DNA of 64,000 bases from the NCBI RefSeq assembly GCF_013620825.1, contig NZ_NJIC01000009.1:179866-243865 (forward strand). The letters are read 5' to 3'. Position numbers and translations under genes: made by a program. Source of the DNA: Rhodanobacter sp. PCA2. GTDB lineage: Bacteria; Pseudomonadota; Gammaproteobacteria; Xanthomonadales; Rhodanobacteraceae. The notes below the pieces were generated by a model. That model did no database searches and was not told the origin of the DNA. It was given only the letters and a program-made list of their open reading frames with translations. The first letter of the stretch is position 1. Each line of letters begins with the position of its first letter. Positions 5,691-38,554 of the stretch are shown one piece after another.

Positions 5691-6791
5691 ATGACCGAGA
5701 AGACCGTACTCAACGCCACCCATCGCGCGCTCGGCGCACGCATGGTCGACTTCGGCGGCTGGGACATGCCGATCAACTACGGCTCGCAGATCGAGGAACA
5801 CCACGCGGTGCGCCGCGACGCCGGCATGTTCGACGTCTCGCACATGACCGTGGTCGACCTGCACGGCGCGCGCACCCGGGACTTCCTGCGCCACCTGCTG
5901 GCGAACAGCGTGGACAAGCTCAAGGCGCACGGCAAGGCGCTGTATTCCTGCATGCTCAACGAGCAGGGCGGGGTGATCGACGACCTGATCGTGTATTTCC
6001 TCGGCGACGAGTTCTATCGCCTGGTGGTGAACGCGGCCACCCGCGCCAAGGACCTGGCCTGGATCGAAAAGCAGGCCGCCGCGTTCGGCGTGGAAGTGAA
6101 GGAGCGTCCCGAGTTCGCGATGATCGCGGTGCAGGGCCCGAATGCCCGCGCCAAGGTGCTCGGCCTGCTGCACGAGGTGGATCGCGCGCGCATCGAGAAG
6201 CTGGGCAAGTTCGCCGCCGCCGCCGCTCAGGGCCCGCACGGCATGCCGCTGTTCGTGGCACGCACCGGCTACACCGGCGAGGACGGTTTCGAGATCGTCG
6301 TGCCGGGCGAGCACGCCGTGGCCTTGTGGGAGGCGCTGGCCGCCGCCGGCGTGCACCCGGCCGGCCTGGGCGCGCGCGACACGCTGCGCCTCGAGGCCGG
6401 CATGAACCTCTACGGCCAGGACATGGACGAGGCCGTCTCGCCGTGGGAGGCCAACCTCGGCTGGACCATCGCGCTGGACGCGGGCCGCGACTTCATCGGC
6501 CGCGCCGCGCTGGAAAAGCAGAAGGCCGCAGGCGTGAAGCGCGTGATGGTGGGCCTGGTGCTGGACGACAAGGGCGTGCTGCGCCACGGCCAGAAGGTGC
6601 TCACCGCGAACGGCGAGGGCGAAATCCTCTCCGGCAGCTTCGCGCCCACGCTGGAAAAGGCGGTGGCGTTCGCGCGCATCCCGGCCGGCGAACCCGGCGC
6701 GGTGCGGGTGGACATCCGCGGCCGCGAATTGCCGGTGCGCCTGGTGAAGTACCCGTTCGTGCGCGACGGCAAGGCCTGCGAAGGCATCTGA
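5691..6791 (+). CDS. gcvT: Glycine cleavage system aminomethyltransferase (T protein)
   Basis: A 366-residue T protein, close to the 364 residues of E. coli GcvT. It releases ammonia from the aminomethyl group on lipoyl-GcvH and transfers the one-carbon unit to tetrahydrofolate. Recognisable segments are [13 protein letters not shown], the GMFDVSHM motif near the N-terminus, [16 protein letters not shown], and the folate-binding region [13 protein letters not shown]. The C-terminal barrel ends [15 protein letters not shown]. gcvH follows after 76 bases; gcvP and lpd are not in the window. Confidence 0.96.
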
Positions 6792-6867: not shown

Positions 6868-7263
6868 ATGAGCGAGATTCCCGGCGATCTGAAGTTCAAC
6901 AAATCCCACGAATGGGCCCGCGTCGAGGACGGCGGCCTGGTGCGCGTGGGCATCTCCGACCACGCCCAGGCCCAGCTCGGCGACCTGGTCTACGTCGAGC
7001 TGCCGGAAATCGGCTCCAGCGTGCAGGCCGGCAACGCCGCTGCCGTGGTGGAGTCGGTGAAGGCCGCCTCGGACATCTACTCGCCGGTGTCCGGCGAGGT
7101 GGTCGAGGTCAACGAGACGCTCGCCGACAAGCCCGAGACGATCAACGAAGACGCCTACGGCGACGGCTGGATCTTCACCGTGCGCATCAGCGACCGTGCC
7201 GAGCTGGACCAGCTTCTGGACGCCAGCGCCTACGAGGAACTGGTCGAGAACGAAGACCACTGA
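6868..7263 (+). CDS. gcvH: Glycine cleavage system H protein
   Basis: A 131-residue lipoyl carrier protein that shuttles the aminomethyl intermediate between GcvP, GcvT and Lpd. The lipoylated lysine is in [19 protein letters not shown] near residue 70. The start [10 protein letters not shown] and the end [12 protein letters not shown] match the family. Length is normal. It lies downstream of gcvT and is closed by a strong terminator at 7286-7318. Confidence 0.97.
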
Positions 7264-7672: not shown

Positions 7673-7704
7673 TTTCGTTTGGATGTCCATACGTCCAAAC
7701 GAGA
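7673..7704. promoter_or_regulatory. Putative MetJ operator (Met-box-like) upstream of the MetJ-like gene
   Basis: An 8-bp inverted repeat (CGTTTGGA 7676-7683, TCCAAACG 7694-7701) encloses tandem 8-mers. Read on the minus strand these include GGACGTAT and GGACATCC, which match the MetJ box AGACGTCT at 6 and 5 of 8 positions. The site lies about 90 bases upstream of the promoter, so it is not a classic overlapping operator. MetJ autoregulation is known in E. coli; here it is inference. Confidence 0.4.
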
Positions 7705-7791: not shown

Positions 7792-7820
7792 TTGACAGCC
7801 GAAATCTTACGGAATAGCTT
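7792..7820 (+). promoter_or_regulatory. Promoter of the MetJ-like gene
   Basis: A consensus TTGACA at 7792-7797, a 17-base spacer and TAGCTT at 7815-7820. The predicted transcript start near 7827 leaves a 20-base leader to the ATG at 7848. This argues against the upstream ATG at 7833. Confidence 0.6.
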
Positions 7821-7847
7821 TCGCCCAAGTTCATGGGGAACTGCAAC

Positions 7848-8381
7848 ATGGTGACACCGAAATACATCAAGCCTTACGTTGAGCACGGTGAGAAGGCGAA
7901 TGCGGTACGCAAGATCACCGTTTCGATTCCGCTCCACGTTTTGCGAACGCTGTCCGACCTGCGCACCGAGCGTCAGGTGAAAAATTTGAGGCACGCCACC
8001 AACAGCGATTTGCTGGTCGAGGCGTTCCTCCACGCTTTTACTGGGCAACCACTGCCAACCGATGAGGAGCTAAGACGAACCATGGCCACTGCCAAGAAAT
8101 CCGCTGCAAAGAAACCGGCTGCCAAGAAGGCCGCCAAGAAGACCACCGCGAAGAAGACCGCCGCCAAGAAGCCGGCCGTCAAGAAGGCTGCCGCGAAGAA
8201 GGCCGTCCGCAAGCCGGCGGCGAAGAAGGCTGCCGCCAAGAAGCCGGCGGCTGCGAAGAAGACCACGGCCAAGAAGGTCGCCAAGAAGCCGGCGAAGAAG
8301 GCTGCCGCCAAGAAGCCCGCCGCCGCCAAGGTGGTGAAGGCCGTCAAGACCAGCAAGACCAGCAAGACCTCCAAGAAGTAA
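7848..8381 (+). CDS. metJ: MetJ-like repressor fused to a histone-H1-like Lys/Ala tail
   Basis: A 177-residue protein in two parts. Residues 1-78 closely match the N-terminal three quarters of the SAM-dependent methionine repressor Met[10 protein letters not shown] (the beta-ribbon that reads the Met box, with Lys22 and Thr24), the [19 protein letters not shown] helix and FTGQPLP. The last ~25 residues of E. coli MetJ are missing. Residues 80-177 are instead a low-complexity AAKKPAAKK-type tail with 38 lysines and no acidic residue, like histone H1 or AlgP tails. Start 7848 is chosen because GGGGAA sits 7 bases upstream and the promoter fits. An internal ATG (8082) preceded by GAGGAG could make the tail alone. 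Target operon candidate: metX-metB-hom at 36 kb. Confidence 0.85.
8082..8381 (+). CDS. Possible internally initiated histone-like tail protein
   Basis: Within the MetJ-like gene, in frame, an ATG at 8082 begins [16 protein letters not shown], the way free-standing bacterial H1-like proteins begin. GAGGAG at 8064-8069 could serve as a ribosome site, though the 12-base gap is longer than ideal. The product would be a 99-residue, extremely basic protein without the MetJ domain. It may simply be the C-terminal half of the fusion, so the entry records a possibility rather than a demonstrated gene. Confidence 0.35.
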
Positions 8382-8410: not shown

Positions 8411-8438
8411 CCTCCCCGCGGTGCCCAGCGCGGGGAGG
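8411..8438 (+). terminator. GC-rich hairpin after the MetJ-like gene
   Basis: A 10-bp stem, CCTCCCCGCG (8411-8420) with its complement at 8429-8438, and an 8-base loop. No T-run follows, so it may assist the terminator just downstream. Confidence 0.45.
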
Positions 8439-8454
8439 TCGATTCGGAAACTTC

Positions 8455-8482
8455 GTCCCGGCCTTGCCGGGACGTTTCGTTT
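8455..8482 (+). terminator. Rho-independent terminator after the MetJ-like gene
   Basis: A 9-bp stem (CGTCCCGGC 8455-8463 with 8466-8474) with a very short loop, followed by TTTCGTTT. It is the second of two hairpins in tandem behind the gene. Confidence 0.6.
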
Positions 8483-36037: not shown

Positions 36038-36061
36038 GAACGTCCAGACGTTTAGACGTCT
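36038..36061 (+). promoter_or_regulatory. Met-box array (putative MetJ operator) of the methionine operon
   Basis: Three contiguous 8-mers: GAACGTCC (5/8), AGACGTTT (7/8) and AGACGTCT (8/8 to the MetJ consensus). The array ends one base before the -35 TTGACA. Tandem 8-bp Met boxes are the known binding pattern of MetJ dimers, and a MetJ-like protein is encoded at 7848. Confidence 0.72.
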
Positions 36062-36062
36062 A

Positions 36063-36091
36063 TTGACAGTGTTGCGTGGCACGGGCACTAT
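36063..36091 (+). promoter_or_regulatory. Promoter of the metX-metB-hom operon
   Basis: Consensus TTGACA at 36063-36068, a 17-base spacer and CACTAT at 36086-36091. The predicted transcription start near 36098 coincides with the 5' end of the SAM riboswitch. Confidence 0.65.
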
Positions 36092-36097
36092 TTCCGC

Positions 36098-36208
36098 CAC
36101 TCATCGAGACCGGCTGAGGGACAGGCCCTTTGAAGCCGGGGCAACCTGCGGAATGTTCCGCGACGGTGCCAACTCCTGCGGTGGCGCAAGGCGCCCCGGC
36201 AGATGGGC
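36098..36208 (+). promoter_or_regulatory. SAM-I riboswitch
   Basis: The S-box core is recognisable in order: CTCATCGAGAC with P1 pairing CTCAT (36100-36104) to ATGGG (36203-36207); CTGAGGGACAGGCCCTTTGA of P2 with the kink-turn; GCAACC at 36141-36146; P3 stem GCGGAA/TTCCGC; the conserved GGTGCCAACTCC at 36165-36176; and a P4 stem GGCGC/GCGCC. It binds S-adenosylmethionine. In front of metX it would lower expression when SAM is plentiful. Confidence 0.9.
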
Positions 36209-36249
36209 AGCTTGCGCAGGCGGCGTCGTATGCCGTACGCGCGGGGCTC

Positions 36250-36284
36250 CTCTCCGGCATCCGCAGGCGATGCCGAACGGAGAG
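36250..36284 (+). promoter_or_regulatory. Ribosome-site-sequestering hairpin upstream of metX
   Basis: CTCTCCG (36250-36256) can pair with CGGAGAG (36278-36284), which contains the metX Shine-Dalgarno GGAGA. An inner GCAT/ATGC stem (36257-36260 with 36270-36273) adds support. This gives a translational output for the riboswitch. Confidence 0.6.
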
Positions 36285-36288
36285 ACGC

Positions 36289-37311
36289 ATGAGCCAGCTG
36301 CCCGAAACCCGCAACGCACGCACCGCCGACGTGGTCGACTTCCCGGTCGCGCCGCGGGTGCGCGTCGCGTTCGGCGACCAGCAGAGCGCGCGGCGGATCT
36401 CCCTCAGTCCGAAGTACGGCAACGGCCCGCGCGAGGTCGATGTGCGCTACCTGTGGAGCGGCGTGGCCGACGCGCCCACCGTGATCGTGCAGGGCGGCAT
36501 CTCCGCGGATCGCTATGTCACGGCGCCGGCCGATGCCGCGCCGGGCTGGTGGCAGGCGCTGGTGGGCGACGGCGCGGCGATCGACCTCGCCCGCTTCCGC
36601 GTGCTGGCGATCGACTGGCTCATCCCGGCCGAACTCGGCACCAGCACCGTCTCCAGCGAAGACCAGGCCGACGCGCTGGCTGCGCTGCTGGATGCGCTGG
36701 GCATCGCCCGGGCGCATGCGTTCGTGGGTTCGTCCTATGGCGCGATGGTGGCGCTGGCGTTTGCCGCGCGGCATCCGCAGCAGACCGAGCGGCTGGTGCT
36801 GCTGGCCGGCGCGCACCGCACGCATCCGCTTTCCACCGCGCAGCGCAGCGTGCAGCGCGGCATCGTGCGGCTGGGCCAGCAGAGCGGTCAGCTGGACGAG
36901 GCGCTGGCGCTGGCGCGCCAGCTCGCGATGACCACCTACCGCGGCAGCGCCGAATTCGGCCGCCGCTTCGCCGGCGACCCGGAATGGCGCGGCGACCGCT
37001 TCCACTTCCCGGTCGAGGACTACCTGGAGCACCAGGGCCGCCGCTTCGTGGAGCGCTTCGACGCCGAGCGCTTCCTCGCGTTGTCCGAGTCCATCGACCT
37101 GCACGACGTGGCGCCCGAGCAGGTGCCGGTGCCGTCCACCCTGATCGGCTTTCCCTCCGACCGCCTGGTGCCGCTGGCCGACCTCTGCGAGCTGCAGCGC
37201 CGCCTGCGCGGCCCGGCCACGCTGGAGGTGGTGGAGTCGCCCTACGGCCACGACGCCTTCCTCAAGGAACCGGAGCAGCTCGCGCCGCTGCTGCGCGAAG
37301 CCCTGCGCTGA
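36289..37311 (+). CDS. metX: Homoserine O-acyltransferase, MetX family
   Basis: A 340-residue alpha/beta-hydrolase-fold acyltransferase that activates homoserine for methionine synthesis. The nucleophile is Ser in FVGSSYGAMVAL; the acid and base are in IGFPSDRLVPLADL and VESPYGHDAFLKE. MetX-family enzymes of Xanthomonadaceae are reported to use succinyl-CoA rather than acetyl-CoA; which applies here is not proven by sequence. ATG 36289 is chosen because GGAGA lies 6 bases upstream, and an earlier in-frame ATG would start inside the riboswitch. It is followed by metB (52-bp gap) and hom. Confidence 0.9.
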   Translation: MSQLPETRNARTADVVDFPVAPRVRVAFGDQQSARRISLSPKYGNGPREVDVRYLWSGVADAPTVIVQGGISADRYVTAPADAAPGWWQALVGDGAAIDLARFRVLAIDWLIPAELGTSTVSSEDQADALAALLDALGIARAHAFVGSSYGAMVALAFAARHPQQTERLVLLAGAHRTHPLSTAQRSVQRGIVRLGQQSGQLDEALALARQLAMTTYRGSAEFGRRFAGDPEWRGDRFHFPVEDYLEHQGRRFVERFDAERFLALSESIDLHDVAPEQVPVPSTLIGFPSDRLVPLADLCELQRRLRGPATLEVVESPYGHDAFLKEPEQLAPLLREALR

Positions 37312-37363: not shown

Positions 37364-38554
37364 ATGAGCGAGACCACGTCCCCCTGTACCCGCGCCGTCC
37401 GCGCCGGCATCGAGAGCGACACCCAGCACGGCGCGGTGGTGCCGCCGCTGCACCTGTCCACCAACTACAGTTTCGAGGGCTTCGGCAAGAAGCGGCCCTA
37501 CGACTACTCGCGCAGCGGCAACCCCACGCGCGACCTGCTCGCCGGCGCGCTCGCCGAGCTTGAGCAGGGCGCCGGGGCGGTGATCACCGCCAGCGGCATG
37601 GCCGCGGTGGCGCTGGCGCTTGAACTGGTGCCGGCCGGCGCCACGGTGCTCGCCGCGCACGATTGCTACGGCGGCACCTGGCGCCTGCTCGACGCGTGGG
37701 CGAAGAAGGGCCGCTTCGCGCTGCAGTTCGCCGACCTCACCGATCCGGCCGCGCTGGCCGCCGGCCTCGCCGCGAAGCCCGCGCTGGTGTGGGTGGAGAC
37801 GCCGTCCAACCCGTTGCTGCGCATCACCGACATCCGCCACGTGGCGCAGGCCGCGCATGCCGTCGGCGCGCTGGTGGTGGTGGACAACACCTTCCTCTCG
37901 CCTGCGCTGCAGCAGCCGCTGGCGCTGGGCGCCGACGTGGTGGTGCATTCCACCACCAAGTACATCAACGGCCACAGCGACGTGGTCGGCGGCGCCGTGG
38001 TGGCGCGCGACCCGGCGGTGGCCGATCAGCTGAAATGGTGGGGCAACTGCAACGGCCTCACCGGCGCGCCGTTCGACAGCTACCTCACCCTGCGCGGCCT
38101 GCGCACCCTGGGCGTGCGCCTGCGCCAGCACCAGGAAAACGCCACGCGCATCGCCGACCACCTGAACGGCCACGCCGCCGTGCGCAAGGTCTACTACCCC
38201 GGCCTCGCCGCCAACCCCTACCACGCACTGGCCGCGCGCCAGCAGCAGGGTTTCGGCGCGATGCTCAGCTTCGAGCTGGAAGGCGACGAGACGCAGATCG
38301 CCGCCTTCGTCGACGGCCTCGAATACTTCTCGCTGGCCGAGTCGCTCGGCGGCGTGGAAAGCCTGGTGGCGCACCCGGCCAGCATGACCCATGCGGCAAT
38401 GGCGCCGGAGGCGCGCCACAAGGCGGGCATTGCCGACACCCTGCTGCGGCTGTCGGTGGGCATCGAGGAGGGCGACGACCTGCTGCGCGACCTCGACGCT
38501 GGCCTGGCCCGCGCCGTTGCCGCGGACAAATCCAAACGCCGGGTGAGCGCATGA
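37364..38554 (+). CDS. metB: Cystathionine gamma-synthase family enzyme
   Basis: A 396-residue PLP enzyme of the Cys/Met metabolism family. The PLP lysine is in VVHSTTKYINGHSDVVGG, and DYSRSGNPTRDLL, ETPSNPLLRITDI and the SLGGVESLVAHPASMTH segment match MetB. It joins the activated homoserine made by MetX with cysteine to give cystathionine. Sequence alone does not exclude O-succinyl/acetylhomoserine sulfhydrylase (MetZ) activity. The ribosome site GGAG precedes the ATG by 8 bases. Its stop overlaps the start of hom by 4 bases, so translation of the two is coupled. Confidence 0.88.
   Translation: MSETTSPCTRAVRAGIESDTQHGAVVPPLHLSTNYSFEGFGKKRPYDYSRSGNPTRDLLAGALAELEQGAGAVITASGMAAVALALELVPAGATVLAAHDCYGGTWRLLDAWAKKGRFALQFADLTDPAALAAGLAAKPALVWVETPSNPLLRITDIRHVAQAAHAVGALVVVDNTFLSPALQQPLALGADVVVHSTTKYINGHSDVVGGAVVARDPAVADQLKWWGNCNGLTGAPFDSYLTLRGLRTLGVRLRQHQENATRIADHLNGHAAVRKVYYPGLAANPYHALAARQQQGFGAMLSFELEGDETQIAAFVDGLEYFSLAESLGGVESLVAHPASMTHAAMAPEARHKAGIADTLLRLSVGIEEGDDLLRDLDAGLARAVAADKSKRRVSA

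Follow-up and report, generated by a model that had tools for sequence, protein, structure and literature searches.

In the Rhodanobacter family, the methionine repressor MetJ is a fusion protein in which the ribbon-helix-helix domain, lacking the usual C-terminal region, continues in frame into a histone H1-like lysine/alanine tail. Computational analysis established that this fusion is real, conserved and no artefact, that it is accompanied by conserved operators and a SAM riboswitch, and that synonymous sites at the junction of its two parts are nearly frozen. Three of the features described below go beyond the initial annotation: tail-less relatives share a C-terminal truncation, the window protein no longer has Glu39 and Arg42, and the conserved nucleotides at the junction lead to an internal ATG. 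The gene under study lies in a stretch of 64,000 nucleotides from Rhodanobacter sp. PCA2, referred to here as the window.

A MetJ domain continued by an H1-like tail

The fusion gene and its two parts are located as follows:

7848 to 8381, + strand: metJ-H1 fusion gene, 177 aa, a single open frame without stop, with profile matches
7848 to 8081, + strand: MetJ ribbon-helix-helix domain, residues 1-78, without the MetJ C-terminal region
8082 to 8381, + strand: in-frame Lys/Ala tail of H1-like type, 99 aa; the internal ATG at 8082 might also yield it as a free protein

The window protein is a MetJ variant with an H1-like tail, and standard models recognise it as MetJ. The Pfam MetJ profile (PF01340) aligned to residues 5-89 with an E value of 1.2e-35 and 121.9 bits (cut-off 25), reaching residue 89 weakly, past the point of departure at residue 78. 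The NCBIfam MetJ equivalog NF003622 scored 127.6, above its cut-off of 110, and identity to the E. coli repressor chain 1cma is 52 of 73 aligned residues. These matches are in good agreement with the initial annotation, which had assigned the first 78 residues to MetJ and had described the expected C-terminal region as replaced: the E. coli alignment stops at residue 77, the window sequence diverges beyond residue 78, so that the region containing helix C is absent, and the tail follows. K22 and T24 (window numbering) are invariant in 15 aligned members and in 143/143 genomes. They correspond to Lys23 and Thr25 of E. coli MetJ, which we take to be DNA-contacting strand residues.

Counted from Met79, the tail contains 38 K, 34 A, 1 R and no D or E; the 38 lysines originally reported are correct, and its length is 99 residues, not 98. 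Its computed charge at pH 7 is +38.5, and it has the acid-free, Lys/Ala-rich composition of H1-like proteins. Base composition does not account for this richness in lysine by chance, because the maximum per 80-residue stop-free stretch is 32 K in the tail frame and only 6 to 8 in the window's five other frames. Model position 1 of the NCBIfam family hist_H1_lk_Burk aligns exactly at residue 79, with a score below its cut-off (25.2 bits against 80), and the HC2 model likewise falls below threshold (24 bits against 40). A structure prediction gave a mean pLDDT of 49.9 and was set aside.

The sequence GGGGA at 7835-7839 lies 8 nt ahead of the ATG at 7848 and is also the family consensus there, with moderate conservation. 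This favours the start at 7848 over that at 7833.

The tail is found throughout the family and is absent from related families

MetJ was found in 146 of the 147 family genomes searched, a sample from a larger group, and in 26/26 genera. From these 146 genomes 149 loci were fetched, of which 145 (one per genome) show a complete C-terminal end; G111 (contig end) and G138 (no MetJ match) could not be assessed. An in-frame tail immediately follows the PTD[E/D]EL region in 145/145 assessable genomes. Tail length ranges from 37 to 312 residues (median 102), the K+R fraction has a minimum of 0.297 and a median of 0.41, acidic residues number at most 2, and the pooled tails consist of 35.7% K and 33.7% A.

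The window's genome has one MetJ copy, and all 11 genomes searched from the same, Rhodanobacter-like genus carry the tail. Homologues of the genus without a tail, or a frameshift joining two separate genes, had been named initially as observations that would speak against a real fusion; neither was encountered, the frame being continuous in every assessable genome. Among named relatives (the best 80 of 189 found), mostly Rhodanobacter and Dyella but also Luteibacter, Fulvimonas and some unclassified assemblies, the junction Met is present in 80/80, and the tail is complete in 76/76 loci with a complete end. In the complete Dyella jiangningensis record CP007444.1, two metJ loci (L088 and L092) encode identical proteins; on a circular record they would be separated by about 345 kb that span its start. 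This pair may be a real duplication or an assembly overlap.

In a sample of 121 genomes from the order, MetJ was found in 34, belonging to three families only: the window's family (19), f189 (9) and f192 (6). The proteins of the latter two families are tail-less in 15/15 genomes, ending a few residues past the junction in f192 and continuing with a short run of other sequence in f189. The survey of Xanthomonadales that the initial annotation had proposed returned tails in 145/145 assessable family genomes and in 0/15 from the two other families. In a class-wide sample of 369 genomes, MetJ occurred outside the family in 3, all of ordinary length and tail-less.

Because a truncated MetJ is also present in the tail-less relatives, loss of the C-terminal region probably preceded the gain of the tail. 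A bicistronic ancestor was considered and rejected for these relatives: downstream of the 15 tail-less loci, no K/A-rich ORF of at least 40 aa was found in up to 900 nt (325 nt for L117 and 113 nt for L242). K/A-rich sequence of the H1-like kind is in itself common across the order, with some HC2 match in 41 of 61 genomes scanned. These matches are mostly weak and partly interrupted by internal stops, so no donor gene is named.

Conserved operators at metJ and metXB

Two regions of the window contain methionine-related regulatory features:

7681 to 7696, + strand: tandem met boxes upstream of metJ, GGATGTCC ATACGTCC; family consensus GGACGTCTAGACGTCC
7792 to 7820, + strand: likely metJ promoter, TTGACA-N17-TAGCTT, a conserved block in aligned upstream regions
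8454 to 8474, + strand: terminator-like hairpin 3' of the gene, weak
36046 to 36061, + strand: tandem met boxes AGACGTTT AGACGTCT, one base ahead of TTGACA (36063-36068), likely metXB promoter
36098 to 36209, + strand: SAM riboswitch of the metXB leader; RF00162 scores 79.1 bits (gathering score 44.4)
36289 to 37311, + strand: metX, homoserine O-succinyltransferase, scanned over 36280-37308; the start ATG at 36289 was picked by eye
37364 to 38554, + strand: metB-type cystathionine gamma-synthase

The met box consensus is given as AGACGTCT in the excerpted text of PMC4239095. Alignment of metJ upstream regions revealed a shared block, GGACGTCTAGACGTCC, that amounts to two tandem met boxes. Tandem boxes scoring at least 12/16 occur in the expected stretch in 105/142 genomes, against 0.35% of shuffles; the remaining 37/142 score below 12/16. 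The promoter pattern TTGACA-N17-TA[G/A][C/A][T/A]T is present upstream of metJ in 89/142 genomes, and a simple sigma-70 scan did not list it.

The window as a whole contains 2 met-box-like tandem sites, against 0.22 expected, and 1/100 shuffles had as many. The second of them, at 36046-36061, had been quoted in the initial annotation and is indeed present, preceding the likely -35 element of metXB. RF00162 was detected in 59/59 family genomes searched, and in 28 of the 30 best-scoring loci from these 59 genomes tandem boxes of at least 14/16 lie just upstream of it, against 0.13% of shuffles. This degenerate score accepted, within each box, either purine (A/G) at the first base and either pyrimidine (C/T) at the seventh and eighth. 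By eye, TTGAC follows the boxes within the inspected stretch in 29/30 of these best-scoring loci, and the metXB operator of the window's genome scores 16/16. At metXB, two SAM-linked layers of control, operator and riboswitch, are stacked.

The conserved tandem operators at metJ and metXB make it very likely that the MetJ half acts as the met repressor in this family. No wider regulon is claimed, because the count of met-box-like sites in the window's own genome (38 with up to 3 mismatches) shows no excess over a reversed control (48). One tandem met-box-like site of the genome (L252, 1501-1516) is followed after about 70 nt by an ORF whose product looks, by eye, like a BtuB-type TonB-dependent receptor. 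Another match falls inside a long CRISPR-like array (L253, 1-2833), recognised by eye from its repeating translations, and is probably due to chance.

The metJ gene lies directly downstream of gcvH (6868-7263), which is preceded by a gcvT-like ORF identified by eye at 5691-6791. The terminator-like hairpin listed above is considered weak because 3 hairpins were found in the region against 2.3 expected. Two hairpins at 8413-8482, which also gave a weak Rfam match to anti-hemB (25.6 bits, gathering score 49.5), are probably terminators.

Replacement of SAM-contact residues

Glu39 and Arg42 are described as crucial SAM partners in E. coli MetJ (PMC2775130, in part). The window protein has Leu at 39 and Glu at 42 instead. 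Both original residues are kept in 102/142 family genomes, Leu39 is combined with E, H, Y or S at position 42 in 38/142, one genome has E39/H42 and one is unclassed. A Luteibacter member (L107) is of the E39/R42 type. Genomes with L39/Y42 lack a box of 12/16 upstream of metJ in 11/14 cases. To judge from these substitutions, SAM control may be weakened or altered in the genomes where Glu39/Arg42 are replaced.

The junction codons are nearly frozen

Three elements were distinguished at the junction:

8034 to 8075, + strand: junction element, 14 codons A63-R76, synonymous sites nearly frozen except at Leu75 and, to a lesser degree, Thr71
8064 to 8069, + strand: GAGGAG, Shine-Dalgarno-like, codons E73-E74, 12 nt ahead of the internal ATG
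8082 to 8084, + strand: internal start codon candidate, Met79, ATG in 144/145 genomes and GTG in one

Across 143 genomes, the 14 junction codons underwent on average 3.6 synonymous changes each, whereas 46 control codons averaged 19.7 (p 8e-8); the changes were counted on a tree derived from the remaining codons. Together the junction codons account for 50 changes, and no other 14-codon stretch of the 50 control positions has fewer than 216. The least constrained are Leu75, which with 16 changes behaves like the control codons, and Thr71 with 8. Each position is mostly occupied by one fixed codon, and for 9 of the 14 that codon makes up less than 1/4 of its synonyms in the rest of the domain. 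The GAG GAG pair, for instance, occurs at 145 of the 146 junctions that could be read, while GAA and GAG are used almost equally elsewhere in the domain (219 to 243). The internal ATG is kept also in 11 genomes that are missing the residue before it. Among tail-less sequences (n = 18), ordinary codon variation was seen by eye at the same place. The combination of frozen synonymous sites, a near-invariant GAGGAG and a kept Met codon suggests that the junction holds an element acting at the nucleotide level.

A single locus, L187 (G006), departs from this pattern: it has GTG at the internal position and has lost the fixed junction codons, and its tail is kept. The same locus also has His at position 42 and a weak upstream met box (10/16). 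L187 is a natural exception that offers a comparison strain.

Folding predictions were made for 114 sequences. In 99% of them, the surroundings of the internal ATG are predicted to fold less stably than in synonymous versions, with means of -17.4 against -23.6 kcal/mol, which favours an internal start. The GAGGAG itself is unpaired at 0.28 against 0.35 in synonymous controls, is more open than these in 26% of the sequences and is predicted to be almost fully paired in the window; the internal AUG is unpaired at 0.45 against 0.43. The spacing between GAGGAG and ATG, 12 nt in most genomes, is longer than usual, and the frozen stretch of 42 nt exceeds the needs of an ordinary ribosome-binding site. 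Both points speak against an internal start, as do the GAGGAG, which is no more open than its controls, the AUG, which is hardly so, and the failure to find a conserved structure (below).

Several other explanations for the constraint were examined. RNAalifold on 106 sequences found no conserved RNA structure at the junction (-2.6 kcal/mol), and no known RNA family with E of 5 or less overlapped 8034-8084. A pairing resembling a FourU element (GCUUUU/AGGAGC) and a core of hammerhead-like type, both considered by eye, were rejected, as each is broken in some natural variants. Slowing of translation by rare codons is disfavoured because it is one particular codon that is kept, not any rare one. 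No sigma-70 promoter was found inside the gene in a scan that also missed the likely metJ promoter.

The 20-nt core of the junction occurs once in the window's genome with up to 3 mismatches. A pattern with most third bases left free gave one match each in 31/41 family genomes and never matched a reversed control; since the 10 genomes without a match include ones with other residues, this pattern adds little to the comparison of codons by eye. The words GGGCAACC and TGCCAAC occur in the same order in the junction element (8043-8059) and in the SAM riboswitch (36139-36173), a sharing that is probably due to chance.

Proposed mechanism and alternatives

The initial annotation had suggested that the tail could raise DNA affinity, bridge distant sites or compact DNA, all of which would be possible effects. 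Lysine-rich tails of H1-like proteins make non-specific contacts with DNA. In the model proposed here, a MetJ lacking its C-terminal region would have gained an in-frame Lys/Ala tail in or before the ancestor of the Rhodanobacter family. The dimeric MetJ part would locate the tandem met boxes that lie upstream of metJ and immediately ahead of the metXB -35 element, and the two tails per dimer would add non-specific contacts with the flanking DNA. A tail of about +38 charges most likely provides affinity that is independent of sequence, and would thereby make occupancy less dependent on SAM and on the missing MetJ parts. Behind the operator, the SAM riboswitch would supply further SAM control. 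The junction element may serve as an internal start, in which case a free H1-like protein would be made from the same gene as the fusion repressor. Taken as a whole, this reading of a rebuilt MetJ with tail-aided operator binding, a riboswitch and a possible internal start is in our view fairly probable.

An internal start is the single most likely use that can be named for the frozen stretch, although we give it somewhat less than an even chance; a small-RNA or protein binding site is the main alternative use. It is also possible, if short of probable, that only the fusion protein is made, that Met79 merely marks where an H1-like gene once began before it was fused, and that the frozen codons serve as a small-RNA target, a DNA site or a site for an RNA-binding protein. 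The long spacing and the not unusually open site fit this explanation, as does the position of the 42-nt constraint, much of which lies upstream of any ribosome site. L187 fits as well, since its MetJ and tail are retained without the ATG or the fixed codons, and there the fusion stands alone. The constraint nevertheless extends to the internal ATG, itself almost invariant, and in L187, a single case, ATG and fixed codons were lost together. In addition, the solitary occurrence of the 20-nt core in the window's genome argues against a widely used regulatory site.

Two further explanations concern the tail itself. It might serve mainly in nucleoid compaction or in binding a polyanion such as polyphosphate or RNA, with MetJ as its anchor. 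Its composition resembles that of bacterial H1-like proteins, and AlgP is reported to affect the spacing of polyphosphate granules (PMC9239181, in excerpt), but the domain that bears the tail is a repressor whose operators are conserved, and the tail's matches to the HC2 and Burkholderia H1-like models stay below their cut-offs; we consider such a primary role unlikely. That a frameshift or assembly error joins two genes could be imagined because the tail begins with a Met and is similar to H1-like proteins that stand alone. This explanation is already refuted, with a residual probability close to nil, by the one continuous frame in the window and by its preservation in all assessable genomes, the genomes with MetJ spanning every genus searched. 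The reading preferred here remains that of a tail-aided repressor with a possible internal start.

Relation to known systems and significance

The actinobacterial HU proteins HupB and HupS carry an H1-like lysine-rich tail on an HU domain. The fusion described here resembles them in placing a folded DNA-binding domain before a Lys/Ala tail in one protein (PMC11229371, in excerpt), although the domain there is the nucleoid protein HU and here a sequence-specific metabolic repressor. AlgP, Hc2 and the Burkholderia H1-like proteins share AAKK-type repeats with the tail; unlike it, they are stand-alone proteins, to whose available models (HC2 and hist_H1_lk_Burk) the window tail scores below cut-off. 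With E. coli MetJ (PF01340; 1cma, 1mj2) the window protein shares the ribbon-helix-helix DNA-binding part and the tandem met boxes in front of metJ itself and of met genes; it differs in the 99-aa K/A tail that replaces the C-terminal region and in the change of Glu39/Arg42 to Leu/Glu. The tail-less proteins of the two other families of the order (L115-L118, L237-L247) likewise end their domain at or shortly after PTD-E-L, yet they have no tail in any of the 15 genomes and their junction codons vary (by eye).

A SAM riboswitch also leads the metX-metB operon of Xanthomonas, as described in extracts of PMC6230763 and PMC7270179. In contrast to the arrangement found here, with MetJ operators before the promoter and ahead of the riboswitch, metJ is stated to be missing in X. 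campestris 8004 (PMC6230763, same extract). The extract of PMC7270179 remarks in passing that control of the MetR/MetJ type appears conserved in many Gram-negative bacteria including Xanthomonas, which contrasts with PMC6230763. In the excerpted text of Leyn 2014 (PMC4239095), MetJ is reported in six gammaproteobacterial groups and none is given for its four Xanthomonadales genomes; a survey of the MetJ regulon (PMC3228920) contains neither "Xanthomon-" nor "Rhodanobacter" in its main text. No description of a tail-bearing MetJ was found in the literature searched, which covered few subscription journals and, among the matches listed, titles and the openings of abstracts. The present results extend MetJ to a family for which the surveys cited, in the parts quoted, do not describe it.

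A metabolic repressor has here become a hybrid of a specific regulator and an H1-like polycation, and has been kept as such over 26 genera. The most surprising part is the frozen junction codons, a clear sign of overlapping information. If the internal start is used, production of the free tail would scale with the expression of metJ. From the sequence pattern, it is possible, though we would not call it probable, that a frozen initiation element yields a free H1-like protein besides the fusion throughout the family. If so, the methionine- and SAM-dependent autoregulation of metJ would also set the amount of a free H1-like nucleoid protein.
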